Shown in pieces: positions 18,983 through 35,624 of a stretch of DNA of 37,329 bases. A model generated the notes under the pieces. The model ran no database searches. It had not been told where the DNA came from and saw only the letters and a list, made by a program, of their open reading frames with translations. The number at the start of each line of letters is the position of its first letter. Positions within the stretch are counted from its first letter, which is position 1. Location of the stretch: assembly GCA_021813825.1 (NCBI GenBank), contig JAKAJI010000010.1:1-37329 (forward strand), read 5' to 3'. This stretch comes from Acidobacteriota bacterium. GTDB taxonomy: Bacteria > Acidobacteriota > Terriglobia > Bryobacterales > Bryobacteraceae. The position numbers were made by a program, and so were the translations under genes.

Positions 18983-19783
18983 CTCCTGAATGGCGCGTAA
19001 ATCGGCGCCGTCGGCGAGCAAGTGTGTCGCGTAGGCGTGGCGAAAGCTGTGCGGATGGAGCGAGGAGTCGCCACTGAGGGCAATCGCGTAGAGCTTTACG
19101 ATTCCGCGGGCGCCGCGATCTGTGAGTTTACCGCCGCGCGCGTTCAAAAACAGGGCCCGCTCGGCGGGGTCACGCGGCAACCGGTTCTCCAGGTATCGCA
19201 CCAGGGCTTCCTCGACCTTCGCGCCGTAAGGAACCTCGCGCTCCTTGCTTCCTTTGCCACGGACGCGCAGCCAACGCTCGTCGCGGTCGAAGTCTTCGAG
19301 TTTCAGGCCGACCAACTCGCTGATTCGCAGCCCGCAGCCATACAGTAACTCGAACAGCAGCCGGTCGCGGGCAGGGAACGGGCGTTCGAGTTTGTTTGTG
19401 GATACCGCATCGATGAGTTGATTGGTGGTTTCGGCGTTCGGCACGCTGGGAGCGAGTTTGGGCGCGCGGGGCGTCCGCACTCTCTTTGCCGCGTTCGCGG
19501 GAACCTCGCCGCGGCGATGGAGGAAGCCGAAGAGACCCCGCACGGCGGCAAGCTTGCGGCGGATGGTGATGGCGCTTAGGCTCTGGGCGTAGAGGTTACC
19601 CATCCACTCGCGAAATTCGAGCGTGCCGAAGGCGGCCGGCGCCGGTGGCGCGCCCTCGGGCGGAGAAAAGTAGGTCAGAAACTCGCGCAGGTCGGCGCCG
19701 TAATTGCGCACCGTGTGGGCGGAAGCGTTGCGCCGCCGGAGTTCGTCGAGATAAGCGTCAATGGCTTCGCCCAGCGGGCTCAT
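18884..19783 (-). CDS. xerC: Tyrosine recombinase XerC
   Basis: Site-specific recombinase that with XerD resolves chromosome dimers at dif. The 299-residue protein has an N-terminal SAM-like core-binding domain (YLDELRRRNASAHTVRNYGA) and a C-terminal catalytic domain. Catalytic residues are visible: R in YGCGLRISELVGL, K in RGKGSKEREVP, H-x-x-R in HPHSFRHAYATHLL, H in ELLGHASLSTTQ and the nucleophile Y in QRYTQL. The ATG at 19783 overlaps the trmFO stop (ATGA), which decides the start; an upstream extension to 19834 is open but would lie inside trmFO. trmFO-xerC adjacency is also known in Bacillus (gid-codV), supporting XerC rather than a phage integrase. Confidence 0.93.
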   Translation of the reverse strand: MSPLGEAIDAYLDELRRRNASAHTVRNYGADLREFLTYFSPPEGAPPAPAAFGTLEFREWMGNLYAQSLSAITIRRKLAAVRGLFGFLHRRGEVPANAAKRVRTPRAPKLAPSVPNAETTNQLIDAVSTNKLERPFPARDRLLFELLYGCGLRISELVGLKLEDFDRDERWLRVRGKGSKEREVPYGAKVEEALVRYLENRLPRDPAERALFLNARGGKLTDRGARGIVKLYAIALSGDSSLHPHSFRHAYATHLLADGADLRAIQELLGHASLSTTQRYTQLSLTDLMAEYDRAHPKA

Positions 19784-21114
19784 CGGACTTCGGCGGAAAG
19801 CATCGCGTCGAGGCTTTCGAGCGCCCTCCGGCAAATGGCGGCGTGGCGTGCGCGCCGGTCTCGTCCGAGTCGGATCCGCTCCGCCTCTTCGAGCGGTGGC
19901 AGCAGGTCAAAGGTGATGTTGGCGGGCTGATAGTTCGATGGGTCTGCACCCGAGACATAAGCGCACAGCGAGCCGAGAGCGGTTTCGCGCGGAAAGGGAA
20001 CCACCGGTTCCTCCTGCGCGAGTGCCGCCGCGCTCCGCCCGGCGATGAGTCCGGTGGCGATGGATTCGACGTACCCTTCGACGCCGGAGATCTGGCCGGC
20101 GAAGAAGATCTCCGGCCGGGAGCGCAGTTGCAGCGTGGGCTTGAGCAGCGAGGGCGCGTTGATATACGTGTTGCGATGCACCTGGCCGTAGCGCAGGAAC
20201 ACGGCCTGTTCCAGGCCTGGGATCAGGCGGAACACGCGCTGCTGTTCCTCGAAGCGAATGTGGTTCTGGAAGCCGACCAAGTTGTAGCTTTCCGCGCGCA
20301 GGTTCTCCTGGCGCAACTGCACCACGGCGTACGGCCGGCGTCCGGTGCGCGGGTCGGTCAGCCCCATTGGCTTCATGGGACCAAAGCGCAGCGTGTCGCG
20401 TCCGCGGCGGGCGAGTTCTTCAATCGGCAGGCAGGCTTCGAAGAATTTTGGGTGGTCTTCGGGGATATGCGACGGCGCGCTCCGCGCGGCTAGCACCTCA
20501 TCAACGAACCGCTCGTATTCTTCGCGGTTGAGCGGGCAATTCAGGTAATCGTCGGAGCCGTCGATCGACTTGCCATAGCGAGAGGCGGCGAAGACGATGC
20601 CGCGGTCGATGGTGGACGCATCCACGATCGGGCTGATGCTGTCGTAGAAAAACAGGCGGTTGGTTCCCGTGAGGCGGCTGATGTCTTCGGCGAGCGCGCC
20701 GGAGGTGAGCGGACCGGTGGCGACGATGACGATTCCCTCGCGCGGGATTTCACGAACTTCGCCACGAACGACGTCAATGCGCGGGTTGCCCGTGACTGCT
20801 CGCGTGGCTTCTTCGGCGAAGATGTCGCGATCGACGGTGAGCGCCTGCCCGCCGGGGACACGCGCCCGCGCGGCGGCATCGAGCAGGGCCGAACCCATGC
20901 GCCGCAATTCTTCTTTGAGCAGCCAAGGTGCGGTATCGGCGCTTTCACTCTTCAGCGAGTTACTGCAGACCAGTTCGGCGAAACGGTCCGTCTTATGCGC
21001 GGATGTGCTCATGAGAGGACGCATCTCATGGAGAGTGCAATCGAGGCCCGCACGAGCGACTTGCAAGGCCGCCTCGACACCCGCTAATCCGCCGCCTAAA
21101 ATCGCAATTCGCAC
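19780..21114 (-). CDS. trmFO: Folate/FAD-dependent tRNA m5U54 methyltransferase TrmFO
   Basis: Makes 5-methyluridine at position 54 in the tRNA T-loop using methylene-tetrahydrofolate and FAD. The 444-residue protein begins with the FAD-binding motif ILGGGLAGVEAA (residues 5-16). It has the family block LVCSNSLKSE with C50 and FEACLPIEE with C228, equivalent in position to the two functionally important cysteines described for TrmFO. It also has PMKPMGLTDPRTG and ISGVEGYVESIATG. Translation starts at GTG 21114. It overlaps xerC by 4 nt downstream and is divergent from the Tat oxidoreductase gene at 21168, with only 53 nt between them. Confidence 0.97.
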   Translation of the reverse strand: MRIAILGGGLAGVEAALQVARAGLDCTLHEMRPLMSTSAHKTDRFAELVCSNSLKSESADTAPWLLKEELRRMGSALLDAAARARVPGGQALTVDRDIFAEEATRAVTGNPRIDVVRGEVREIPREGIVIVATGPLTSGALAEDISRLTGTNRLFFYDSISPIVDASTIDRGIVFAASRYGKSIDGSDDYLNCPLNREEYERFVDEVLAARSAPSHIPEDHPKFFEACLPIEELARRGRDTLRFGPMKPMGLTDPRTGRRPYAVVQLRQENLRAESYNLVGFQNHIRFEEQQRVFRLIPGLEQAVFLRYGQVHRNTYINAPSLLKPTLQLRSRPEIFFAGQISGVEGYVESIATGLIAGRSAAALAQEEPVVPFPRETALGSLCAYVSGADPSNYQPANITFDLLPPLEEAERIRLGRDRRARHAAICRRALESLDAMLSAEVR

Positions 21115-21167: not shown

Positions 21168-22382
21168 ATGCCGGACCAAGACGTCAACCGCCGAAGCGTG
21201 CTTCGCACGGCCGCCACGGGCGCAATCGCCGTTACCGCCGCCAGTTACTCGCGCGTACTGGGCGCCAACGACCGCGTTCAACTCGGTCTGATCGGCTGCG
21301 GCTCGCGCGGCCAGTATGACATGGGGATATTTCAGAAGAATCCGGCGGTTCATGTCGCTGCGCTCTGCGACGTCTGGGGCGACCGCGTGGACGAGGCCGC
21401 CCAGAAAGCACCCGACGCGAGGAAGTACGGCGATTACCGCAAACTTCTCGAAGAAGGCAAAGACCTGGATGCGGTTCTCATCGCCACGCCGGACCACTGG
21501 CACTCGCGCATCTCGATCGCCGCCGTGCAAGCCGGCAAGGACGTTTACTGCGAGAAGCCGCTGACACTGACAATCGAGGAAGGCCCGAAGGTCGTCAAAG
21601 CGGCGCGCGAAAACAACCGCGTATTTCAGACCGGCATGCAGCAGCGCTCCGGACCGCATTATATGCAGGCACGGGACGAGTATATCCAGGCGGGAAAGTT
21701 GGGAAAAATCACGCTGGCGCGCACCTGGTGGCACGGCAACGCGTGGCACCTGCGCAAGGCGCCCGCCACGCTGGCGCAGAAGCCGGCGAACCTCGATTGG
21801 GATATGTTCCTCGGCCCGGTGAAGTGGCGCGACTGGGATCCGCAACAGTACTGGAATTTCCGGGCTTACCTCGATTTCGGCGGCGGGCAGGTGACGGACC
21901 TGTTCACCCACTGGATCGACGCGGTGCATATGTTTATGCTGCAGGACGACCCCATCAGCGCCGTGGCGGCGGGCGGCATCTATGCGTATCCCGATGGGCG
22001 CACGGCGCCGGACACGATCGACATCCTGCTGGAGTATCCCGCCAAGTGGACCGCGACGTTTGAAGCGACGCTCGCACCCGGGATCAAGGGCGCGGCGATT
22101 CAGATGTGCGGTACCGAAGGAAACCTATATATCGACCGGTCGAAGTTCGTTTTCACGCCCGCCGACCGCGGGGCGCAGCCTACGGAAGTGAAGGCGGCGC
22201 GCGAGTTGACCATCGACCACGTGGAGAATTTCCTGGCCTGCATGCGCAGCCGCCAACGGCCCAACGGCGACGTGTACATCGGTCACCGCAGCGCGCAGGC
22301 ATCGCATCTGGGCAACCTGGCATACGAGCAGAAGCGGCGCATTCAGTTCGACCCGCAGCGGGAAGAGATTCTGCCCCTCTAG
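21168..22382 (+). CDS. Tat-exported Gfo/Idh/MocA-family oxidoreductase
   Basis: NAD(P)-dependent sugar oxidoreductase family; substrate unknown. The 404-residue protein starts with a twin-arginine signal (NRRSVLRTAATGAIAVTAAS, residues 7-26). The Rossmann motif IGCGSRG follows at ~43-49, then ATPDHWHS and the catalytic-type motif YCEKPLTLT around residue 128, and the C-terminal alpha/beta domain (TWWHGNAWH, YLDFGGGQVTDLFTHWID). Members with Tat signals are frequent in Acidobacteria and Planctomycetes and are thought to be periplasmic. It is followed 17 nt later by an aldo/keto reductase in the same direction, so the two probably act together on a carbohydrate. Confidence 0.92.
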   Translation: MPDQDVNRRSVLRTAATGAIAVTAASYSRVLGANDRVQLGLIGCGSRGQYDMGIFQKNPAVHVAALCDVWGDRVDEAAQKAPDARKYGDYRKLLEEGKDLDAVLIATPDHWHSRISIAAVQAGKDVYCEKPLTLTIEEGPKVVKAARENNRVFQTGMQQRSGPHYMQARDEYIQAGKLGKITLARTWWHGNAWHLRKAPATLAQKPANLDWDMFLGPVKWRDWDPQQYWNFRAYLDFGGGQVTDLFTHWIDAVHMFMLQDDPISAVAAGGIYAYPDGRTAPDTIDILLEYPAKWTATFEATLAPGIKGAAIQMCGTEGNLYIDRSKFVFTPADRGAQPTEVKAARELTIDHVENFLACMRSRQRPNGDVYIGHRSAQASHLGNLAYEQKRRIQFDPQREEILPL

Positions 22383-22399
22383 GCGGGCCAATAACTTCT

Positions 22400-23452
22400 A
22401 TGGAACTACGGCAACTTGGCAAGTCCGGGCTGATGGTCCCGGTTCTCTCCTTCGGTACCGGCACCTTCGGCGGGCGCGGTGAGCTATTCCAAGCCTGGGG
22501 CGCCACCGAGGTGGAGGAGGCCCGGCGATTCGTGGGCATCTGTCTCGACGCCGGCGTCAACCTGTTTGATACGGCGAACGCTTATTCGGCGGGACGCTCG
22601 GAGGAGATCCTCGGCGAAGCGGTTCAGGGGCGGCGGCATCAACTTCTGATTGCTACGAAGGCCTTCTTCCGGATGGGCGAGCATCCAAACGAAGGTGGAA
22701 CTTCGCGCTATCACCTGATCGCCGCCTGCGAAGCGAGCCTGAAGCGGTTACGAACCGATTACATCGACCTTTACCAGATGCACTGCTTCGACGCGATGCC
22801 TCCGGTGGAGGAAACACTTCGCGCGTTGGACGACCTGGTGACCGCCGGGAAGGTGCGCTACATCGGCGCGTCGAATTTCTCGGGCTGGCACATGATGAAG
22901 TCGCTCATGACCAGCGACCGCTACGGATGGTCGCGCTACGTCGCGCACCAGGTTTACTATTCGCTGATCGGTCGCGAGTATGAATGGGAACTGATGCCGC
23001 TCGGGCACGATCAAGGCGTGGGAGCGCTGATCTGGAGTCCGCTTGGCTGGAGCCGGCTGACGGGCAAGATCCGCCGCGGCCAACCTGCGCCCGGCTCCGG
23101 ACGCCTGCCCAAGACCGCACAGTACGGACCGCCGGTGGATGAGAACCTGCTGTTCAACGTGGTTGACGCGCTTGATGAAGTGGCGAAGGAGACCGGAAAA
23201 TCGATCCCGCAGATCGCGCTGAACTGGCTGATCCAGCGGCCTACGGTCTCCTCCGTCATCATGGGAGCGCGCAATGAGCAGCAGTTGCGCGACAACCTGG
23301 GCGCGGCGGGATGGAAACTCACGCCGGAGCAGATATCGAAACTGGATGCGGCTAGCGATGTGACGCCGGTTTATCCCTACTGGCACCAGCGCCAGACGGC
23401 TTCGGACCGGAACCCTCCTCTGGTTGGGCCGGGGGCCGCAGTTCAGCGCTAG
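22400..23452 (+). CDS. Aldo/keto reductase, potassium-channel beta-subunit-like (second copy)
   Basis: NADPH-dependent oxidoreductase, 350 residues, cytoplasmic by lack of a signal. The tetrad is complete: D57 and Y62 (NLFDTANAYSAG), K87 (IATKAF), H128 (YQMHCFD). The cofactor end IMGARNEQQLRDNLGAA is present. It is a full-length paralogue of the protein at 5456-6487, sharing the ending YPYWHQR with RNPPL close behind. The ATG at 22400 follows the Gfo/Idh/MocA stop by 17 nt. The stop overlaps the convergent redoxin gene by 4 nt. The frame is open further upstream, but that part lies inside the previous gene. Confidence 0.92.
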   Translation: MELRQLGKSGLMVPVLSFGTGTFGGRGELFQAWGATEVEEARRFVGICLDAGVNLFDTANAYSAGRSEEILGEAVQGRRHQLLIATKAFFRMGEHPNEGGTSRYHLIAACEASLKRLRTDYIDLYQMHCFDAMPPVEETLRALDDLVTAGKVRYIGASNFSGWHMMKSLMTSDRYGWSRYVAHQVYYSLIGREYEWELMPLGHDQGVGALIWSPLGWSRLTGKIRRGQPAPGSGRLPKTAQYGPPVDENLLFNVVDALDEVAKETGKSIPQIALNWLIQRPTVSSVIMGARNEQQLRDNLGAAGWKLTPEQISKLDAASDVTPVYPYWHQRQTASDRNPPLVGPGAAVQR

Positions 23453-24594
23453 CGCGAATTCCAATAGGCCTGCTGGCCGATGTAATCATCGTCGGGCAGA
23501 TGACGGAGAATCAACCGGCGGAGTTCCAAGGGGTCGGCGGCGCCTTGGGTGGAAAATAAGACCGCGCCGCCGGGCCCGAGAAGCACGGTGTACGGGACCC
23601 CGCCGTTCCACTTCGGGTCGAAGGCCGCCATCATGGCGTATGTGTCGTCGCTTGAGAAAAGGAGATTGCGGCTGGTGGCGTGCTGTCGCTCGAGAAAGGC
23701 GAAGACGCCTTTACGTTCATCAGGGAACTGGGCGGCGACCGTGACCAGGTCGAACGCCCGCTTGCCGTACATTCGGTACATCTTCTCGAACTCGGGGAAC
23801 TCTTCGACGCAGGGCCCGCACCAGGTTGTCCAGAAATCGACAAGCACCACTTTGGCGGAGGTGTTCCCGCGTAACGCGCTAAGTTCTGCGGCGGAAGCCA
23901 TGTCGAGCTTCACCGGTTGGGCGTTGATCTTGAGGAGTTCTTCAGCTTGGCCGCCTTTCGTTGACCATTTGATGGAGCAGCCCATGGTGGGGCGAACGGG
24001 GTTTGCCACGGGTTTACCGGCGAGCAAGGCGTCGATGGCGTCGCGAGCGTCGTGAATTCGGGCGAGGTTCTCGCGCATGCTCGAGTCGACACGGCCCTGG
24101 TAGCGCAGCCTGCGCTGAGCGTCAAAGATGAACACGTGCGGCGTCGAAACCGGGCCATACGCACGGGCTACGCTCTGTGTGGCGCCGTCATATAGATAGG
24201 GAAAGTTGAACTGCCGGTAGGCGGCGCGGATCTTCATCTCATCGAGAGAATCGCCCACATCGGTATAACCCATCTCATCGAGCCGGACGGCTTTCGGGTC
24301 GTTCGGCTGGATGGCCACAAGCGCCACGCCCTTGTCCTGATAATCGGCGGCGAGTTGCTTGATGCGGCCTTCGTAAAGCTGCGCGGTGGGGCAGTGGTCA
24401 CACGTGAAAACGACGACGAGGATCTTGGCCGAGTTGTAGTCGGCCAGCGAGTGCATTTTGCCATCGATGCCCGGCAGGTGAAAATCCGGGGCCGGAGAAC
24501 CGATCGCGAGCGTAGGCACTGTTTCTGCGCCGACAACGGAGACAGCGATCAGTGCCGTGAGAATCAGCGTGGCCATTCTCGAGACGAGTTTCAT
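23449..24594 (-). CDS. Exported two-domain thioredoxin-fold protein (AhpC/TSA-like plus TlpA-like)
   Basis: A 381-residue periplasmic redox protein. A signal peptide (LILTALIAVSVVGA, cut near AGAET) is followed by a first redoxin domain (PAPDFHLPGIDGKMHSLADY) whose active-site-like motif is FTCDHCPTA. The second thioredoxin/TlpA domain has the canonical LVDFWTTWCGPCVEEFP. Two different CxxC motifs in one chain suggest a thiol relay or combined peroxide/disulfide handling; the substrate is not predictable. The start is an ATG at 24592-24594. The gene converges on the aldo/keto reductase, overlapping it by 4 nt, and is divergent from the HTH-like membrane protein at 24663. Confidence 0.9.
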   Translation of the reverse strand: MKLVSRMATLILTALIAVSVVGAETVPTLAIGSPAPDFHLPGIDGKMHSLADYNSAKILVVVFTCDHCPTAQLYEGRIKQLAADYQDKGVALVAIQPNDPKAVRLDEMGYTDVGDSLDEMKIRAAYRQFNFPYLYDGATQSVARAYGPVSTPHVFIFDAQRRLRYQGRVDSSMRENLARIHDARDAIDALLAGKPVANPVRPTMGCSIKWSTKGGQAEELLKINAQPVKLDMASAAELSALRGNTSAKVVLVDFWTTWCGPCVEEFPEFEKMYRMYGKRAFDLVTVAAQFPDERKGVFAFLERQHATSRNLLFSSDDTYAMMAAFDPKWNGGVPYTVLLGPGGAVLFSTQGAADPLELRRLILRHLPDDDYIGQQAYWNSR

Positions 24595-26175: not shown

Positions 26176-27096
26176 ATGACGCTGAAAGTAGGGGCCTCAC
26201 ACGTCGTGAGGGGGATTTTGTTGACCGCTGCGCTCACCATTCCGCTGGCCGCACAAATCGGCATGTTCAGCAAGGAGCAGTTGATTGCCCTGACGAGTGA
26301 ATGGAAGGGGGATCGGTTCCCGGACGGGCGCCCGAAGGTTCCCGATTCCGTTCTCGACCGGTTGAAGGACACCACGGCCGAGGAGGCCTGGAGTACGCTG
26401 CGACACGCCGGGTACCGGTTGCAGTTTGAAGGCAACTGGAAGGAGATCAACCCGGGCGAGCGGTTGATCGGCCGCGCGGTCACGGCGGTGTTCATGCCCT
26501 ACCGTCCGGACATTAACGCTTACATCAACGGAGAGGGCAAGAAGGAGGGCCGCGTCGGGCACGGACAGAATTCCTGGGTGATCGACACGCTGGTGCATCG
26601 CGACGTCATGGTGGTCGACCTGTTCGGCAAGGTGGACGGCGGCACCATCATTGGCGACAACCTGGGAACGTCGATCATGACAAAGACCGGAACGGGCCTG
26701 GTAGTGAACGGGGCAGTTCGCGACCCAACCGGGATATCCGAGATCAAGGGTTTCCATGTGTTCGCCCGGGCCTTTCACCCCTCAGCGATCGCCGAGGTGA
26801 CGCTGATGGGGATGAACGTGCCGATCCGTATCGGTCAGGCGACGGTGCTGCCAGGCGACATCGTTCTGAGCGACCCGGATGGAATTACCTTCATTCCCGC
26901 GCAACTGGCCGAGAAGGTGGCTGACGATTCCGAACTGACGCACTACCGCGACGACTGGGGCCACGAGATGCTGCGCGAAGGCAAGTACGCGCCGGGGCAG
27001 GTGGACGGGCAGTGGTCTCCGCAAATGATCGAAGAGTTCAACAAATACCTCGAAAGCAAGGGCTCGAAACTGCGCTTGCCCGTGAAGCAGCAATAG
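26176..27096 (+). CDS. Exported RraA-like protein (RraA/HMG-aldolase superfamily)
   Basis: A 306-residue protein with the RraA-superfamily core GDNLGTSIMTKTG, VVNGAVRDPTGI and PGDIVLSDPDGITFIPA. In related aldolases/decarboxylases the Asp after the Arg in the VRD motif binds the metal; RraA itself is an RNase E inhibitor. Unlike those cytoplasmic proteins it starts with a clear signal peptide (residues ~10-27, HVVRGILLTAALTIPLAAQ) and is longer than the usual ~160-230 residues. AGGAG (26163-26167) sits 8 nt before the ATG. The enolase-superfamily gene follows by 25 nt, so a role in catabolism of a keto- or sugar acid is more likely than RNase control. This last step is inference. Confidence 0.82.
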   Translation: MTLKVGASHVVRGILLTAALTIPLAAQIGMFSKEQLIALTSEWKGDRFPDGRPKVPDSVLDRLKDTTAEEAWSTLRHAGYRLQFEGNWKEINPGERLIGRAVTAVFMPYRPDINAYINGEGKKEGRVGHGQNSWVIDTLVHRDVMVVDLFGKVDGGTIIGDNLGTSIMTKTGTGLVVNGAVRDPTGISEIKGFHVFARAFHPSAIAEVTLMGMNVPIRIGQATVLPGDIVLSDPDGITFIPAQLAEKVADDSELTHYRDDWGHEMLREGKYAPGQVDGQWSPQMIEEFNKYLESKGSKLRLPVKQQ

Positions 27097-27121
27097 CAGA
27101 CGGAATCGGAGACGAATTCAT

Positions 27122-28528
27122 ATGGCAAACATACTCAGTGGGAAATTCGGCCGGCGGGCACTCCTGAAGACTTCAGGCGGCCTGCTGACCGCAAAGATGA
27201 TCGAGAGGGAATTGGAAGCGCAGGAAGCGCCGTTCCGGAACGTCAACACGAACTCGAGTCCATCGACGTTGAAGATCACCGACATGCGCATTGCCACCAT
27301 CGTGAAGCCGGGGCCGAGTCCCTGCACGATCGTGCGCCTGGATACGAATCAGGGCGTCTACGGGTTGGGCGAAGTGCGCGATGGCGCTAGCGCGACGTAT
27401 GCGCTGTTCCTGAAAAGCCGCGTGGTGGGGGAGAATCCTCTCAACATCAACAAGATCTGGCAGAAGATCAAGCAGTTCGGCTACCACGGGCGGCAGGCGG
27501 GCGGCGTCGTATCCGTCGAAGAGGCGTTGTGGGACATCGCGGGCAAAGTGTACGGAATTCCGATTTACCAGATGTTGGGCGGCAAGTTCCGCGATAGCGT
27601 CCGCATCTACGCGGACACTACCGAGTCCGAAGATCCGGCCGTGTACGCGGCGCGGGAGAAGGCTCGCAAGGAAGAGATGGGGCTGACCTGGCTCAAGATG
27701 GATCTCAACATCAACCTGATCTCCAAGGTCCCCGGAACCGTGATGCAACCCTCGGGGATGAGCCAGTGGGAGATGCGCAACCTTCCGCATCCCTTCACTG
27801 CGATGGAAATCACCGACAAGGGCATCGACAAGTTGTGCGAGTACGTGGCGGCGGTCCGCGGCGCAGTCGGCTACGAGATTCCGCTTTCGATGGATCACCT
27901 GGGCCATCTCGGCGTGAATTCCATTATTCGCCTCGGCAAGGCCTACGAGAAGTACAACCTCGAATGGATCGAAGACGTGATCCCGTGGCAGTACACCGAA
28001 TTACTACAGCGCATTACGATGGAAAGTCCGACGCCGCTGATTACAGGCGAAGACATTTATCTGAAGGAGGGCTTCATCAAGCTCTGCCAGGCGCACGCGG
28101 TAAGCAAAATTCACCCGGACATCTCGACGTCCGGCGGCATTCTGGAGACGCATAAAATCGGCGATGCCGCCTGGGAGTATGGCGTTCCGATGGCGATGCA
28201 CTACGCCGGAACACCGATCGGCGCAATGGCCTCGGTACACGTGGCGGCGGCGACGGAGAACTTCCTGGCCTGTGAAAACCACTCGCTCGATGTGCCGTGG
28301 TGGCAGGATCTGGTGGAAGGCATCGAGAAGCCGATCATCAACAAAGGCTTCATCAAGGTTCCGGACAAGCCCGGGTTGGGCGTGACGCTCAACGATGAAG
28401 TCGCTAAGCAGCATCTGATGCCGGGGACCGGCTACTTCGAGCCGACCCCGCAGTGGAATCATGAGCGGTCGGGCGACTGGCTGTGGAGCCGGTTCGGGCG
28501 GCCCTCGGATCCGGACGTAGAGGTGTAG
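27122..28528 (+). CDS. Mandelate racemase/enolase-superfamily protein with Tat-like N terminus
   Basis: Enolase-superfamily enzyme, probably a sugar-acid dehydratase or racemase. Active-site residues are recognisable: the lysine on strand 2 (WLKMD, K192), metal ligands D258 (SMDHLGH), E281/E284 (EWIEDV), E310 (ITGED), and H360 (AMHYAGT) as general acid/base. The N-terminal capping domain includes DMRIATIVKPGPSP and ALWDIAGKVYGIPIYQMLGG. The extra N terminus contains a twin arginine (FGRRALLKTSGG) but the hydrophobic part is weak, so export by Tat is only possible. 468 residues is longer than the usual ~400. It follows the RraA-like gene by 25 nt. Confidence 0.88.
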   Translation: MANILSGKFGRRALLKTSGGLLTAKMIERELEAQEAPFRNVNTNSSPSTLKITDMRIATIVKPGPSPCTIVRLDTNQGVYGLGEVRDGASATYALFLKSRVVGENPLNINKIWQKIKQFGYHGRQAGGVVSVEEALWDIAGKVYGIPIYQMLGGKFRDSVRIYADTTESEDPAVYAAREKARKEEMGLTWLKMDLNINLISKVPGTVMQPSGMSQWEMRNLPHPFTAMEITDKGIDKLCEYVAAVRGAVGYEIPLSMDHLGHLGVNSIIRLGKAYEKYNLEWIEDVIPWQYTELLQRITMESPTPLITGEDIYLKEGFIKLCQAHAVSKIHPDISTSGGILETHKIGDAAWEYGVPMAMHYAGTPIGAMASVHVAAATENFLACENHSLDVPWWQDLVEGIEKPIINKGFIKVPDKPGLGVTLNDEVAKQHLMPGTGYFEPTPQWNHERSGDWLWSRFGRPSDPDVEV

Positions 28529-28535
28529 CGGGGAA

Positions 28536-28563
28536 GCGCCCCGGGGAGAGTTTCCCGGGGTGC
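28536..28563 (+). other. GC-rich hairpin between the enolase-family gene and the TonB receptor
   Basis: GCGCCCCGGG (28536-28545) can pair with CCCGGGGTGC (28554-28563), with one G-U pair; the inner bases GA/TT may extend it to a very short loop. It begins 8 nt after the stop codon at 28528. No T-run follows, so it is not a canonical intrinsic terminator. It could reduce read-through or stabilise the upstream transcript. Confidence 0.45.
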
Positions 28564-28656
28564 GTCTGCCGAGGTGGACGACAGACGTTAGTCGGGGAAG
28601 TGGTTGGAATTGTTTTGGTGGAAGCAGTTCTAAAAGCAAAGGGGGCTTTTGCGTCT

Positions 28657-31600
28657 ATGTCGAAGAAATTGTCGGCGCTGTCTGTCACGGCGCTGATTGC
28701 ATCCGTATTCTGTTTGCCGGTGGCCGGACAGGTTACAACCGGGACTATTCTCGGTACCGTACGAGACTCCAGCGGGGCGCCTGTTGCGGCGGCGAAGGTG
28801 ACGATCACCGACATTAACAAGGGAACCGTCACGAGTTATGCGACGGATCAGACTGGAACTTACAACGCTCCGTTCCTGATTCCAGGCACTTACAAGGTTG
28901 TTGTCGAAGCGCAAGGATTCAAGCGCGCCGAGACAGATAACGTGATTTTGGACGTTGACCAGAAGGCACGTCTGGATTTCGCGCTCGAGGTTGGTGAACT
29001 CACCCAGACGATGGAAGTCGTCGCCACGGCGCCTCTGGTCCGGGCCGACAGCGCGGAGTTGGGTGACGTGGTTACGCAGCGCTCCGTGCAGATGCTGCCG
29101 CTGAACGGCCGGAACTTTGCGCAGCTCGTGTACCTGGTGCCGGGCGTAACGCCCGGCCAGGTCGGCGAGAATCTGTCGGGCGCGAGTTCGTTCAATCCGC
29201 GTGCCGCTTCCGACTTTAACGCCCTAGGCAGCCAGGCCAACGCGAACGCGTGGCTGGTAGACGGCATCGACGACAACGAGTACACGTTCAACACCGTAAT
29301 GGTGCAGCCGTCAGTCGAGTCGATCGGCGAGTTCAAAGTGTTGACGGGGACGTTTTCCGCGGAGTTCGGCCGGGGCGCCGGCGTAGTGAGCGTTTCGACG
29401 CGGTCCGGCGCGAACGATTACCACGGCGAGTTGTTCGAATATCTTCGCAACAGCTACATGGATGCCCGGAATTACTTCAATCCGACCACGCAGAGGCAAC
29501 CGGAGTTCCGCCGGAACCAGTTCGGCGCGGCGGTCGGCGGCCGCATCATCAAGGACAAGCTGTTCTTCTTCGCCGATTACTACGCGATCCGCGCGCTGAA
29601 AGGCATCACGTTCGTCAATAGCGTGCCAACCGCGGCCGAGCGTACGGGCGACTTCAGCAACTACTTCAACTCGAAGGGGAATCTGATCACGATCTACAAT
29701 CCGTTCACGACGCAGCAGGTAGGCAATCAGATCACGCGGCAGCCTTTCCCGAATAACGTTATTCCAGCGAATCTCATCAATCCGGTGGGCTTCAACGTGG
29801 CGAGCATTTATCCCCTGCCGACACTACCGGGAAGCTTCAATAACTACACATCCGCAGCGAATCAGATCACCGATGACAACGGAGGCAATTCGCGGCTCGA
29901 CTATCGCATCAGCGACAAAGACTCGATGTTCTTCCGCTACTCGTACGAGTACTTCAGCTTCACGAATCCCGCGTCAGGACAGGGCGCCTGCTGTCTTCCA
30001 ACTCCGGCCTCGGCCGCGCAGCAGTTCCAACTCGGACCCTACGTCGCGGGCCCGCAGACCACGAACCTGGCTGCGCAGGGGGCTGCCCTGAACGAAACCC
30101 ACATCTTCAGCCCGACGCTGCTCAACGAATATCGCATGGGATTCGCCCGAACCAATCCCTACACGGTGCCTTCCGGCTACGGCCTCGCGTCGGCAACGTC
30201 GCTGGGAATCCAGGGCATCAACATCTCTCATTTCACTAGCGGCCTGCCGAACCTGAACATTCAGGACTTTACGGGCATCGCCAGCGGCGCCGCGTTCCTG
30301 CCGGCAAACCCGAAGCAGACCAACATCCAGTTTGAGGACAACCTCTCCTGGACCAAGGGCACGCACCAGATGAAGTTTGGCTTCCGCTATATCCGCGAGT
30401 TGGTTACGCCGTTTACCAACACGAACACGCGCGGCACGATCAGCTTCAACGACAACTTCACGAACAATCCGGTGAATGCCGTTGGAGGCTCTGGCATCGC
30501 CACACTGCTGCTCGGCTATTCGACCGGCGGATCGCGGGGATTCCTGATTACGCCGTATTACATGACGAACCAGGAGTTTGCCGGATTCTTCCAGGACGAC
30601 TGGAAGGCGACGTCGCGGCTTACCTTCAACCTCGGTCTCCGGTACGACGTGTTCACGCCGGATGTGGAAATCCGGAACCGGCTGGTCAATTTCAATTTCA
30701 ATACGCTCAGCCTGGTGTATGCGGGCGTGAATGGAACCTCAGACACCGCGGGCGTGCAGACCCGGTATAACGACCTTGCGCCACGGTTCGGCTTTGCTTA
30801 CGATTTGACCGGAAAGCAGACGACGATCCTACGCGGCGGGTTTGCGATCTCGTACTTCCCTGGCCCGTTCTCCGGTTCGAACGAACTCGGACAGCAGGTT
30901 CCCTATACGATTTCGCAGAACTACGCGGTGAACACCTATCCGTTAAGCTTCACTAACGTTCCGCAGATTCAGAACCTGTTCCCGCCGATCGCGCCGATTC
31001 AGCCCATGAACACGGCAGAGCTGAATGCCGCTTCCCCGGCCGTGATCGGACACCAGTTCAATAACCTGACTCCCTACATGGAGAGCTGGAACATCGACAT
31101 TGAGCATCAGATCTCTTCGAGCACGATGCTCGAAGTCGCCTATGCGGGGAGCCGCGGTGTCCACCTCACTTACTGCTACAACCCGAACGAGGTTCTGCCG
31201 GGTACGCCCGGTGTGGATTCGGCCAGTTCGCTGGCTTCACGCCGCATCATTCAGCCGCTGAACAACGTGTCGAACATGACCCAGTGCGACGAGCGGAATA
31301 TGTCGAACTATCACGGGCTGCAGGTAAAAGTGACGAAACATTACTCCCACGGCATGTCGGCATTGCTGAGTTACACTTACAGCCGTTCGCTCGACTACGG
31401 CGGGTCGGCGGCTAGCGGTGGCGGCGCGGTGGGCAATCCGCAGACGATCACCAACCTCGCGGCGGGCTACGGACCGTCGGGCTTCGACCAGATGCACCGT
31501 TTTGTCGGCAGCTACACGTATGAACTTCCGTTCGGGAAGGGAAGGAAGTGGCTCCAGCAAGGTATCGCTTCCTACATCCTGGGTGGTTGGGAAGTGGACG

Positions 31601-32013
31601 GCATCGTGACATTCGCTAGCGGACTTCCGTTCACTGTGTATCTCAACAGCGGCGTCAATTTCGGCGCGCCGAGCTGGCCGAACCGCATCGCTTCCGGCAC
31701 TTTGTCGAATCCGCAGCAGTCGCTGTGGTTCAATCCGGCCGCGTTCAAAGCGCCGCCACCGAACACGTACGGAAACTCGGCGCGCGGTGTGCTCTATGGC
31801 CCGACGACGTCGAACTGGGACCTGTCCATGCTCCGTCATATTCCAATCTGGGAGCGCATCAGCATGGAATTGCGTATGGACTTCTTCAATGCGTTCAATA
31901 CTCCAAACTTCGGATTCCCGAACGCAAACATCGGCTCACCCACGGTCGGTGTAATCACGTCGACGGTGAACGACAACCGCGACCTGCAGGCCTCGGTCCG
32001 GATCGTGTTCTGA
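28657..32013 (+). CDS. Oar-like TonB-dependent receptor with carboxypeptidase-regulatory-like domain
   Basis: Outer-membrane protein of 1118 residues. Signal peptide (LSALSVTALIASVFCLPVAG) is followed by an immunoglobulin-like carboxypeptidase-regulatory domain (GTVRDSSGAPVAAAKVTI, LIPGTYKVVVEAQGFK). The plug region has LPLNGRNFAQLVYLVPGV and GAGVVSVSTRSGANDYHG. A large beta-barrel ends in the terminal aromatic residue of outer-membrane proteins (SVRIVF). This architecture is strongly expanded in Acidobacteria and is thought to import oligosaccharides or other large ligands. The ATG at 28657 was chosen because it directly precedes the signal peptide; the frame is open to 28483, inside the previous gene. 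An intrinsic terminator follows at 32037-32074. Confidence 0.93.
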   Translation: MSKKLSALSVTALIASVFCLPVAGQVTTGTILGTVRDSSGAPVAAAKVTITDINKGTVTSYATDQTGTYNAPFLIPGTYKVVVEAQGFKRAETDNVILDVDQKARLDFALEVGELTQTMEVVATAPLVRADSAELGDVVTQRSVQMLPLNGRNFAQLVYLVPGVTPGQVGENLSGASSFNPRAASDFNALGSQANANAWLVDGIDDNEYTFNTVMVQPSVESIGEFKVLTGTFSAEFGRGAGVVSVSTRSGANDYHGELFEYLRNSYMDARNYFNPTTQRQPEFRRNQFGAAVGGRIIKDKLFFFADYYAIRALKGITFVNSVPTAAERTGDFSNYFNSKGNLITIYNPFTTQQVGNQITRQPFPNNVIPANLINPVGFNVASIYPLPTLPGSFNNYTSAANQITDDNGGNSRLDYRISDKDSMFFRYSYEYFSFTNPASGQGACCLPTPASAAQQFQLGPYVAGPQTTNLAAQGAALNETHIFSPTLLNEYRMGFARTNPYTVPSGYGLASATSLGIQGINISHFTSGLPNLNIQDFTGIASGAAFLPANPKQTNIQFEDNLSWTKGTHQMKFGFRYIRELVTPFTNTNTRGTISFNDNFTNNPVNAVGGSGIATLLLGYSTGGSRGFLITPYYMTNQEFAGFFQDDWKATSRLTFNLGLRYDVFTPDVEIRNRLVNFNFNTLSLVYAGVNGTSDTAGVQTRYNDLAPRFGFAYDLTGKQTTILRGGFAISYFPGPFSGSNELGQQVPYTISQNYAVNTYPLSFTNVPQIQNLFPPIAPIQPMNTAELNAASPAVIGHQFNNLTPYMESWNIDIEHQISSSTMLEVAYAGSRGVHLTYCYNPNEVLPGTPGVDSASSLASRRIIQPLNNVSNMTQCDERNMSNYHGLQVKVTKHYSHGMSALLSYTYSRSLDYGGSAASGGGAVGNPQTITNLAAGYGPSGFDQMHRFVGSYTYELPFGKGRKWLQQGIASYILGGWEVDGIVTFASGLPFTVYLNSGVNFGAPSWPNRIASGTLSNPQQSLWFNPAAFKAPPPNTYGNSARGVLYGPTTSNWDLSMLRHIPIWERISMELRMDFFNAFNTPNFGFPNANIGSPTVGVITSTVNDNRDLQASVRIVF

Positions 32014-32036: not shown

Positions 32037-32074
32037 AAAATCGGATCGCCCTTCGCGGGGCGATCCGATTTTTT
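32037..32074 (+). terminator. Strong intrinsic terminator after the TonB receptor gene
   Basis: AATCGGATCGCCC pairs perfectly with GGGCGATCCGATT around the loop TTCGCG, giving 13 base pairs. The stem is followed directly by T residues (32069-32074) and preceded by A residues, so it may also act on the opposite strand. It lies 24 nt after the receptor stop codon. Confidence 0.92.
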
Positions 32075-32148: not shown

Positions 32149-32619
32149 ATGCTAGAAAAACTCATTCGCACCAAGAACGATCACGGGTTGGCGATCGCGC
32201 GCCTGGTGCTGGGTATTGTCTTCCTGGCTCATGGCTCGCAGAAGATGCTCGGACTGTTCGGCGGCTCTGGATTCAGCGCGACGATGGGATTCTTCGAACG
32301 TGGCATGGGAATTCCTGCGCCACTGGCGTTTCTGGCGATCGCAGCCGAGTTCTTTGGCGGTCTCGGGCTTGTTCTCGGTCTGTTGGGGCGTGTGGCGGCA
32401 TTCGGCATCGCGGTGAACATGCTGGTAGCAATCTTTACAGTCCACATCAAGAACGGTCTGTTTATGAACTGGAGCGGAACGCAAAAGGGCGAGGGCATTG
32501 AGTATCACCTGCTCGTGCTCGCCATCACGGCAGCGGTGATGATTGGCGGTTCGGGCGCGTGGTCGGTGGACGGGGTCTGGGGGCAAAGTTTCGCGGCGGG
32601 GCGGAACCCGATACGATGA
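32149..32619 (+). CDS. DoxX-family membrane protein
   Basis: A 156-residue integral membrane protein with four hydrophobic helices: LAIARLVLGIVFLAHGSQKM, PLAFLAIAAEFFGGLGLVLG, AAFGIAVNMLVAIF and LLVLAITAAVMIGG. The early ARLVLGIVFLAHGSQKMLG and central AAEFFGGLGL are typical of DoxX. Some members interact with thiosulfate/quinone or redox enzymes, but the biochemical role of most is not known. AGGAAGG (32136-32142) lies just before the start. Because of the terminator upstream it begins a new unit, which may continue into mbfA 62 nt downstream. Confidence 0.9.
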   Translation: MLEKLIRTKNDHGLAIARLVLGIVFLAHGSQKMLGLFGGSGFSATMGFFERGMGIPAPLAFLAIAAEFFGGLGLVLGLLGRVAAFGIAVNMLVAIFTVHIKNGLFMNWSGTQKGEGIEYHLLVLAITAAVMIGGSGAWSVDGVWGQSFAAGRNPIR

Positions 32620-32681
32620 GTCGAGCGGCCACCGCGTGAGGAGTTCCTCTCAAGCGGGGACGCGAGGCGGTCCCGCTTACC

Positions 32682-33638
32682 ATGGCGAAAAATTTCAAAG
32701 ATCTTACAGAGCAGGAAATCCTCGCACTGGCGATCTCGCTCGAGGAAGAAGACGGGCGGATTTACGGCGATTTTGCCGAGGCGTTGCGCGCTGGTTACCC
32801 GGCCACGGCGCAGATGTTCGAGGAGATGCAGGCCGAGGAGTCCCAGCATCGGGCCTGGCTGATCGAAACATACCGGCAGAGATTCGGCGAGCACATTCCC
32901 TTAGTCCGGCGCCAGGATGTGAAAGGTTTTGTCGAGCGCAGACCAGTGTGGCTCTACAAGCCTCTGGGGGTAAAGGCTGCCCGGCGGGCGGCGGCGACGA
33001 TGGAAAGCGAAACCCGCCAGTTCTACGAGCGCGCGATCACGAAGGTGAGCGACGCTTCGGTGCGAAAACTGCTCGGCGACCTCGTTGAGATCGAGCAAAG
33101 GCACATCGCGACAGCCGGTGCGATGGAAGAACGGCTGACGGCAGACACCAAACAACAGGAAGAGGACGTGGCGCGGCGGCTGTTTGTGCTGCAGATCGTG
33201 CAACCGGGCCTGGCCGGGCTGATGGACGGCTCCGTGTCGACGCTCGCGCCGGTTTTCGCAGCGGCGTTCGCCACGCGCAATAGCTGGGACGCGTTTCTGG
33301 TGGGCATTGCGGCTTCCGTTGGCGCAGGCATCTCGATGGGCTTTGCCGAGGCCCTGTCCGATGACGGTTCGCTCACCGGGCGCGGGCATCCCTGGGTGCG
33401 CGGGGCGGTATGCGGACTGATGACTACCGCCGGCGGCATCGGGCACACACTGCCGTATCTGATTCCCGATTTTCGTGTAGCGACTTCAGTTGCAGTGGGG
33501 ATCGTGGCGATTGAACTGGCAATCATCAGTTGGGTGCGGCATCGTTACATGGACACGCCGTTCTTGAGCGCGGCGATGCAGGTGATCGTAGGCGGCGTGC
33601 TTGTGTTCTTGACGGGCATTCTGATTGGGAGCGCATAG
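32682..33638 (+). CDS. mbfA: Membrane-bound ferritin MbfA (erythrin-VIT1 family)
   Basis: A 318-residue protein with an N-terminal rubrerythrin/ferritin-like four-helix domain and a C-terminal VIT1/CCC1-like membrane domain. Diiron ligands are visible as acidic helices and ExxH motifs: SLEEEDGRIYGDF, AEESQHRAWL, ESETRQFYERA and EIEQRHIA. The membrane part includes QPGLAGLMDGSVSTLAPVFA and GAGISMGFAEALSDDG, as in vacuolar iron transporters. Characterised MbfA proteins export iron and protect against iron and peroxide stress. Length agrees with MbfA (~325). It is followed 6 nt later by the dehydratase gene. No Fur/Irr-type site was recognised. Confidence 0.9.
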   Translation: MAKNFKDLTEQEILALAISLEEEDGRIYGDFAEALRAGYPATAQMFEEMQAEESQHRAWLIETYRQRFGEHIPLVRRQDVKGFVERRPVWLYKPLGVKAARRAAATMESETRQFYERAITKVSDASVRKLLGDLVEIEQRHIATAGAMEERLTADTKQQEEDVARRLFVLQIVQPGLAGLMDGSVSTLAPVFAAAFATRNSWDAFLVGIAASVGAGISMGFAEALSDDGSLTGRGHPWVRGAVCGLMTTAGGIGHTLPYLIPDFRVATSVAVGIVAIELAIISWVRHRYMDTPFLSAAMQVIVGGVLVFLTGILIGSA

Positions 33639-33644
33639 TAAAAC

Positions 33645-35624
33645 ATGGCAGAGATACCGTCGTTCGAGGTCATCGCCGATAGCGGTGACGAATCCATTTA
33701 CTCCGTGCGGTCGGCCGCGGTGGGCCCGCAAGGCACGCTGCCGCTGACGGAGAAGATGCTGCGGGAGCGGCCGTCCGGCGATCTGTTCGGACTGACGCAG
33801 GACGTCGGCATGGGCTGGAGCCCGTCGCGGCTGACAGGCGACGAGACGCTGATCTTGAGCACGCACGGCGGCGTGCGTGCGCCCGATGGGACGCCGGTGG
33901 CGCTGGGTCTTCACACAGGGCACTGGGAAGTGAACCTGCTCGTAGAAGAGGCAGCGCGGGAGTTGAGCGCCGCGGGCGGCATGCCCTTTGCGGCCTATTG
34001 CACGGATCCCTGCGACGGGCGGACGCAAGGAACGGTCGGAATGTTCGACAGCCTGCCCTACCGCAACGACGCGGCGATGGTGCTCGGGCGGCTGATCCGT
34101 TCGCTGCCTACGCGGCGCGGCGTGCTGGGCGTGGCGACCTGTGACAAGGGATTGCCGGCGATGATGATGGCGCTGGCCGGCGCGCGCGATCTGCCGTGCG
34201 TGCTTGTGCCCGGCGGTGTAACGCTGCCGGCCGAGGGCGCCGAGGATGCCGGAACGGTGCAGACGATCGGAGCGCGCTTCGCGCACGGGAAGATCACGCT
34301 CGACTACGCGGCGGACATGGGCTGCCGGGCATGCGGCACGCCAGGCGGAGGGTGTCAGTTCCTCGGCACCGCGGCGACATCTCAGGTCGTGGCCGAAGGT
34401 TTGGGCATGGCGTTGCCACATTCGGCGCTGGCGCCTTCCGGCGAACCGATCTGGCTCGACATGGCCAAACGATCGGCGCGGGCATTGCGGGCTCTCGTCG
34501 CACGGGGCCTTCAAATGCACGATGTGTTGACGGAAGGCGCGCTACACAACGCGATGGCGGTGCACGCGGCGTTCGGCGGATCGACGAACCTGCTTCTTCA
34601 TTTGACGGCTGTGGCGCATGCCGCGGGACTTCGTCGGCCGGCCAGGGAAGATTGGGAGCGGGTGAACCGGAGCGTGCCGCGGTTAGTGGACGCGCTGCCG
34701 AACGGCCCGCGGAATCATCCGACCGTCCGCGTGTTCCTGGCCGGCGGCGTGCCCGAGGTGATGCTGCATCTGCGCCGCGCCGGACTGCTCGAGACGCGGG
34801 CGATGACGGCGGCGGGCGTCACCGTCGGCGAAGCGCTCGATTGGTGGGAGAAATCGGAACGGCGCGCCAGGCTGCGGGCTTTGCTGCGCGAGCGGGACGG
34901 CGTGGATCCCGATGAGGTGATCTTTTCCCCCGATCGCGCCGCGGCAAGCGGGCTCACGTCAACCGTTTGTTTTCCCGTGGGGAACCTGGCGCCGGAAGGT
35001 TCGGTGATCAAGAGCACGGCGATCGATCCTTCGGTGGTGGACCCGGATGGCGTGTACCGCATGACCGGTCCAGCACGGGTGTTCTTGACCGAGGCGGCGG
35101 CGATCGGGGCGATCAAGCGTGGCGAGATCCGGTCCGGAGACGTGATGGTGCTGATCTGCCGAGGACCGCTGGGCTCGGGGATGGAGGAGACTTACCAGGT
35201 AACCTCGGCTCTGAAGCATCTGGAGTTCGGTAAACACGTATCGCTGATCACCGACGCACGGTTCAGCGGCGTTTCTACCGGGGCATGCATCGGGCACGTG
35301 TCGCCGGAGGCGCTCGCCGGTGGGCCAGTGGGTAAGTTAGTGGACGGCGACGTAATTGAGATCATCGTGGACCGCGTCCGTCTCGAGGGAAGCGTGAACT
35401 TAGTCGGCTCGGGCGGGCGCGTGTTCGGGGCCGAAGAAGGAACGCGCCTGCTCGCGTCACGACCGATGCGCGACGACCTGCGGGCCGACGAGGCGCTGCC
35501 TGATGCGACGCGGCTCTGGGCCGCGCTGCAGCAGGCAAGCGGCGGACCCTGGGCCGGTTGTGTGTACGATGTGGAGAAGATCCTGCGGGTGATCGAAGCA
35601 GGGCGCCGGGCGCTGGGGGAGTAG
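33645..35624 (+). CDS. YjhG/YagF-type D-xylonate dehydratase (IlvD/Edd family)
   Basis: Fe-S dehydratase converting a sugar acid (D-xylonate in characterised members) to a 2-keto-3-deoxy acid. The 659-residue length is close to the 655 of E. coli YjhG/YagF and longer than IlvD. YjhG-type blocks are present: [93 protein letters not shown] and [20 protein letters not shown]. Cluster cysteines lie in the DPCDG, TCDKG and GGCQF segments. The start follows mbfA by 6 nt. The last ~50 codons recur at 37177-37329. With the enolase-family and RraA-like genes nearby it suggests sugar-acid use. Confidence 0.92.
35463..35615 (+). repeat. Direct repeat, copy A: 3' end of the dehydratase gene
   Basis: This segment recurs in the same orientation at 37177-37329. 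Over the last 138 nt (35478-35615 against 37192-37329) I count 17 mismatches, about 88% identity. The final 37 nt (35579-35615) are identical. The repeat may extend past the window, since copy B is cut by the window end. Confidence 0.9.

Follow-up and report, generated by a model that had tools for sequence, protein, structure and literature searches.

The window, by which we mean the whole stretch of 37,329 nucleotides analysed here, lies in a 5.1 Mb draft genome of the Acidobacteriota and carries, in succession, genes for an RraA-like protein, an MR/MLE enzyme of the enolase superfamily and an Oar-like TonB-dependent receptor, preceded by an open reading frame (ORF) that is regulator-like by our own reading only (Table 1). 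The ORF coordinates agree with the preliminary description in the placement of the three genes and in their spacing, with 25 nt between the two enzyme genes (27097-27121) and 128 nt before the receptor gene (28529-28656), whose start was taken as the ATG at 28657, nested in a longer ORF with a GTG at 28483. The hairpin described ahead of the receptor was also found, but it was rejected as a terminator, since it lacks a T-run and its stem, judged by eye, is altered in L119, a near-identical relative of the window. A pattern scan for promoters and terminators performed no better on the window than on shuffles, with 6 terminator-like matches against a shuffle mean of 5.7, and did not list the hairpin that folding placed 3′ of the receptor.

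Table 1 Features of the RraA-MR/MLE-receptor locus, in window coordinates
Feature	Position	Strand	Basis or remark
Upstream ORF, 434 aa	24663..25967	+	No Pfam/NCBIfam match; position ahead of the trio kept in the genus
RraA-like protein, 306 aa	26176..27096	+	PF03737, 81.2 bits; D161-X20-R182-D183 metal motif; RraA fold
Sec-type leader of RraA-like protein, residues 1-26	26176..26253	+	Leader rule; cleavage site placed by eye
MR/MLE (enolase superfamily) enzyme, 468 aa, predicted sugar-acid dehydratase	27122..28528	+	PF13378, 149.3 bits; 2qq6 match; catalytic residues
Eroded twin-arginine leader of MR/MLE enzyme, GRRALLK-TSGGLLTA-K	27149..27196	+	
Hairpin in MR/MLE-receptor gap, without T-run	28536..28563	+	12 pairs
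Oar-like TonB-dependent receptor, 1118 aa, Sec-type leader	28657..32013	+	PF25183, 829.5 bits
Terminator-like hairpin and T-run 3′ of receptor	32037..32072	+	Folding

Homologues of the upstream ORF also adjoin other Oar-like receptors (L117, L118), so its family may be one of receptor-linked regulators. Before the locus, positions 21168-24594 encode a Gfo/Idh/MocA protein, whose leader is Tat-like, and an aldo/keto reductase, with a two-domain redoxin/TlpA-like protein on the opposite strand; these genes are largely retained in L119 and partly in L120. Beyond the receptor, a DoxX-family gene and then the iron exporter MbfA (NF045676, 507.8 bits; cut-off 450) occupy 32149-33638 (+), followed 1.6 kb 3′ of the receptor by a leaderless D-xylonate dehydratase of the YjhG/YagF family (33645-35624, +; TIGR03432, 1143.6 bits; cut-off 808), a gene also present in L119.

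The RraA-like protein scored above the PF03737 cut-off of 24.5 bits and below every NCBIfam cut-off, the best model being PRK08245 (118.6 against 208 bits). Identification as the RNase E regulator RraA was rejected on the basis of a score of 40.9 bits, where NF006875 needs 136, and of the predicted export of the protein. AlphaFold models of the RraA-like and MR/MLE proteins had mean pLDDT values of 91.7 and 86.0, respectively, and the best PDB matches of the former, namely 3k4i, 3noj (HMG/CHA aldolase) and 5x15, assigned it to the RraA fold. Across an alignment of 44 rows, D161 was retained in 41 and both R182 and D183 in all 44, in a D-X20-R-D arrangement that we take to be the metal and catalytic motif of RraA-fold class II pyruvate aldolases. 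Fold, domain and motif thus place the protein with these aldolases, and aldolase activity is predicted. In HMG/CHA aldolase, R123 and D124 have roles at the active site (PMC5065237). Separately, a chain with the RraA fold in PDB 5ir2 carries the label cellulase, and a search of the open-access literature by this code found no paper on it.

The MR/MLE enzyme matched PF02746 (43.9 bits) as well as PF13378, and its model resembled other putative dehydratases in the PDB besides 2qq6. Three metal ligands and a His-Asp dyad (D258, E284, E310, D333 and H360) were conserved in 32 of 32 rows; together with the two domains, these are the features by which we assign a sugar-acid dehydratase, an activity that we predict for this protein. 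Mandelate racemase carries the motif KxK, and identification as mandelate racemase proper was rejected because all 32 rows have KxD instead (K192-x-D194). The nearest NCBIfam model was galactonate dehydratase (PRK14017), but the score of 187.6 bits fell below its equivalog cut-off of 311. A second MR/MLE subfamily, approximately 50% identical to P0002, adjoins a cupin protein with a Sec leader rather than RraA, as observed at L104, L105, L106 (contig C291 of the window's own genome) and L107.

Subsequently, we turn to the association of the two enzyme genes. An order-level survey of 250 genomes (cut-offs E<=1e-100 for MR/MLE and E<=1e-40 for RraA) yielded MR/MLE orthologues in at least 132 genomes and RraA in at least 171. 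Among the matches listed, 41 rows, the window's own included, were close RraA homologues (>=55% identity); 28 of these, distributed over 10 of 20 genera, had a same-strand MR/MLE gene no more than 300 nt away, and the other 13 did not. In a wider scan of 80 loci from many phyla, 76 were scored, the gene caller having missed RraA in L128-L131, which were excluded. MR/MLE was not immediately adjacent to RraA at 51 of these 76 loci; over the 80-locus set, it filled 29 of 154 slots adjoining RraA as against 4 of 712 other slots, an excess over chance in a comparison uncorrected for genome relatedness. Moreover, at 7 of 20 loci, MR/MLE orthologues (65-79% identity) lay beside or near other RraA paralogues (39-46%) with order or orientation altered, an observation more readily explained by a functional connection than by common descent alone. 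The window's genome encodes five RraA genes, two with an MR/MLE neighbour, and 15 MR/MLE matches over the cut-off; its second RraA-MR/MLE pair is on contig C159. Two further loci (L048, L049) were RraA-MR/MLE-RraA triplets, each with two unlike RraA proteins. Several contigs apparently recur under two designations (L119/L228, L120/G389 and L122/G449), so counts from different surveys are not independent. Collectively, the RraA-MR/MLE arrangement is genuine, conserved and unusual.

Export signals were called with a home-made rule for Sec and Tat leaders, not a trained predictor; the gene caller and cluster names were our own, and the phyla of the 76 RraA loci were assigned by us from record titles. 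The rule scored 89 of 104 RraA proteins and 57 of 62 MR/MLE proteins (Tat-like) but only 1 of 48 control proteins, drawn from nine clusters judged intracellular by reading (c12, c23, c27, c28, c32, c33, c36, c38 and c63), and it fires also on membrane proteins, carriers among them, and on one Rossmann-fold protein of the window (19780-21114). The window's RraA-like protein bears a Sec-like leader, with a charged n-region, a hydrophobic core and small residues before the mature start, and is probably exported. Its kin agree with this prediction, in line with the Sec signal that had been proposed for it: 62 of the 76 scored loci carried such a leader, comprising 11/11 in Acidobacteriota, 48/49 in Bacteroidota, 2/2 in Verrucomicrobiota and 1/1 in Latescibacterota (62/63 in total), as against 0/3 in Chloroflexota, 0/9 in Poribacteria and 0/1 in Zixibacteria (0/13), where the protein begins near the domain. 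We regard this contrast within one domain family as the best check on the rule. At two Poribacterial loci with MR/MLE nearby (L146, L155), both proteins were leaderless. Both families are mostly cytoplasmic, and one might suppose that the leaders arise from wrongly chosen start codons and that the two enzymes are ordinary cytoplasmic proteins, as the failure of the window's MR/MLE enzyme under the Tat rule would also suggest. We regard this explanation as very improbable, because the same domain carries a leader almost throughout four phyla and never in three others, a Tat-like start is kept by 38 of 41 MR/MLE proteins, and a single control protein scored.

The twin-arginine N terminus attributed to the MR/MLE enzyme holds for the family, and the motif itself is present in the window (GRRALLK), but there the leader fails the Tat rule for want of an uncharged hydrophobic stretch: TSGGLLTA provides 8 uncharged residues before a lysine, the shortest such stretch among the RR-bearing A2 rows (11-28 in the others), and a Poribacterial A2 row without a leader has 9. 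The three failures among the 41 loci were the window, L228 (G530) and L229 (G466), whereas orthologues at 70-81% identity, and likewise L120, retain a Tat-like leader. TatC is encoded in the window's genome. A frame-shift behind the eroded leader was rejected, the other reading frames, judged by eye, being unhelpful. Export of the window's dehydratase is consequently doubtful, and because of this erosion the two steps may now be split between compartments in this genome. A stronger version holds that in the window's clade RraA alone is still exported and the dehydratase is cytoplasmic again, so that the enzymes no longer act in series and the locus is a remodelled exported module. The erosion is common to three sister genomes and to none other of the 41 loci, in an MR/MLE enzyme otherwise intact with every catalytic residue, as this version would predict; we nevertheless consider it rather unlikely, given that the same genomes keep the RraA-MR/MLE-receptor order and the RraA leader, and that the persisting RR and weak hydrophobic stretch may still allow some export.

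The receptor was correctly recognised as Oar-like, combining the PF25183 barrel with CarboxypepD_reg and Plug domains and a leader that is Sec-like by the home-made rule. The order upstream ORF, RraA, MR/MLE and receptor is shared by the window, L228, L229 and L120, the last apparently identical to G389, the fourth sampled species of the genus, and the coordinates of the three named genes are consistent with linkage in all four sampled species. Across the order, a close receptor homologue was found in 53 genomes and adjoined MR/MLE in 5, namely the four genus members and G463; strict conservation of the three-gene order was not found beyond the genus among these 53 genomes. In a phylum-level sample, a 55% identical receptor adjoined a 55% identical MR/MLE in G125, and a 53% receptor adjoined a 29% MR/MLE in G291, while remoter Oar-like receptors (28-29%) adjoined MR/MLE in L232, L239 and L242. 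The coupling to a receptor that had been proposed therefore stands within the genus but is rare elsewhere, and of the conserved neighbourhood it is the RraA-MR/MLE pair that extends further, the three-gene order hardly doing so. The receptor link is real but local, a genus-level companion of the pair.

Carriers accompany the pair more widely. We examined 20 of the 28 order-level pairs, omitting the four genus members, G398, G343, G334 and G324, and found an LctP or BASS carrier flanking 13 of these 20, all of which come from outside the genus. An LctP lactate/glycolate permease is at most one gene upstream in 10 (directly adjacent in 8), and a BASS/PanS-type carrier lies directly downstream in 3. 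No carrier adjoins the window's pair. Of 49 Bacteroidota loci, 23 have BASS no more than two genes away from RraA. Furthermore, a DgaE-like ammonia lyase, mostly leader-bearing and often accompanied by RidA and an amidohydrolase, replaces MR/MLE at 15 of the 49 Bacteroidota loci; the overlap of DgaE-like with MR/MLE loci was 0, against 4.9 of 49 expected, with relatedness uncorrected. MR/MLE dehydratases and DgaE-type lyases both produce 2-keto-3-deoxy acids, so the simplest role common to the RraA proteins would be the next step on that intermediate. L170, L160, L197 and other Bacteroidota loci place RraA beside an exported DgaE-like lyase, RidA, an EF_0837-like amidohydrolase and a sorbosone-dehydrogenase/cytochrome c protein. 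The DgaE-like loci are a possible periplasmic amino-sugar-acid pathway.

From the computed families, folds, catalytic residues, leaders, pairing and carriers, we infer that the RraA-like and MR/MLE genes together constitute an acid-sugar module of two steps, exported in most relatives, a reading that we favour on balance. The Tat-exported MR/MLE enzyme would remove water from an aldonate, or from a similar sugar acid, yielding a 2-keto-3-deoxy acid that the Sec-exported RraA-like enzyme would cleave to pyruvate and an aldehyde; small carboxylates would then enter through the LctP or BASS carrier that adjoins the pair in many relatives, and in the window's genus the Oar-like receptor may be the route by which the precursor passes the outer membrane. 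Aldol cleavage to pyruvate is preferred because of the carriers, but it is not assured, because FlDet, an RraA-family enzyme of Flavobacterium sp. UMI-01, dehydrates and decarboxylates 2-keto-3-deoxyglucarate and does not accept 2-keto-3-deoxygluconate (PMC8563752). By analogy, the RraA-like protein could be a 2-keto-3-deoxy-aldarate dehydratase/decarboxylase that forms α-ketoglutaric semialdehyde instead of pyruvate and an aldehyde, a reaction for which FlDet shows the family to be capable; we consider this quite unlikely here, since native FlDet retains the initial methionine and is leaderless, and the LctP and BASS carriers fit a small carboxylate at least equally well.

The two-step module with aldol cleavage agrees with the periplasmic pathway put forward in the preliminary description at the level of the family, through the pairing, the co-varying export signals, the catalytic residues and the carriers; the weak point is the window's own clade, where the Tat signal is eroded. 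The computed evidence points neither to a pair of cytoplasmic enzymes nor to a neighbourhood without conservation. More broadly, and tentatively, Acidobacteriota, Bacteroidota and Verrucomicrobiota might share a modular, exported, non-phosphorylating route, a proposal to which we give somewhat less credence than to the module itself. In it, a Sec-exported RraA lyase would be fed by one of two branches, a Tat-exported MR/MLE enzyme for acid sugars or, for amino-sugar acids, a Tat-exported DgaE-like lyase together with RidA and a deacetylase, and the keto acid would be taken up by LctP or BASS carriers.

By standard teaching, the dehydration of sugar acids and the cleavage of keto acids belong to the cytoplasm. 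If the route exists, an Entner-Doudoroff-like pathway would have its sugar-acid half outside that compartment: acid-sugar carbon would reach the inner membrane already cut to small carboxylates, uptake inferred from genomes would run through LctP/BASS carriers rather than sugar-acid permeases, and a concrete role would fall to a large protein group whose current annotation is RNase regulator or hypothetical protein. The gene sets in cultured Dyadobacter, Spirosoma and Mucilaginibacter strains make the route testable. Our search of the open-access literature, with subscription journals and preprints outside its scope, found no paper on exported RraA-MR/MLE pairs; novelty is not thereby proven.

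Compared with known systems, the window's MR/MLE enzyme shares domains, metal ligands and the His-Asp dyad with D-galactonate dehydratase and its kin, but differs in its sub-cut-off score, its KxD motif and the N-terminal leader of its relatives. The DgaE-like loci resemble the EF_0837/DgaE amino-sugar-acid clusters, in which an amidohydrolase, a DgaE-like lyase and an aldolase-like enzyme adjoin; in contrast, the enzymes of the loci described here are predicted to be exported, and RraA takes the place of a KDPG-type aldolase. HMG/CHA aldolase (3NOJ) shares the RraA fold, and its active-site Arg and Asp align with R182 and D183, whereas it is cytoplasmic, serves aromatic catabolism and matches the window's RraA-like protein at 43.8 bits. 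This aldolase (PMC5065237) and FlDet (PMC8563752) are two fitting precedents for the RraA step. FlDet, compared here by description, also belongs to the RraA family and has a 2-keto-3-deoxy sugar acid as its substrate, but it is described as leaderless, not beside an MR/MLE gene and accepting only 2-keto-3-deoxyglucarate (PMC8563752). Finally, the periplasmic 3-ketoglycoside pathway (LacABC/DUF1080) resembles our proposal in placing proposed sugar chemistry in the periplasm ahead of uptake, but it consists of glycoside oxidation and hydrolysis and has no enzyme family in common with the RraA-MR/MLE pair (PMC9007349).
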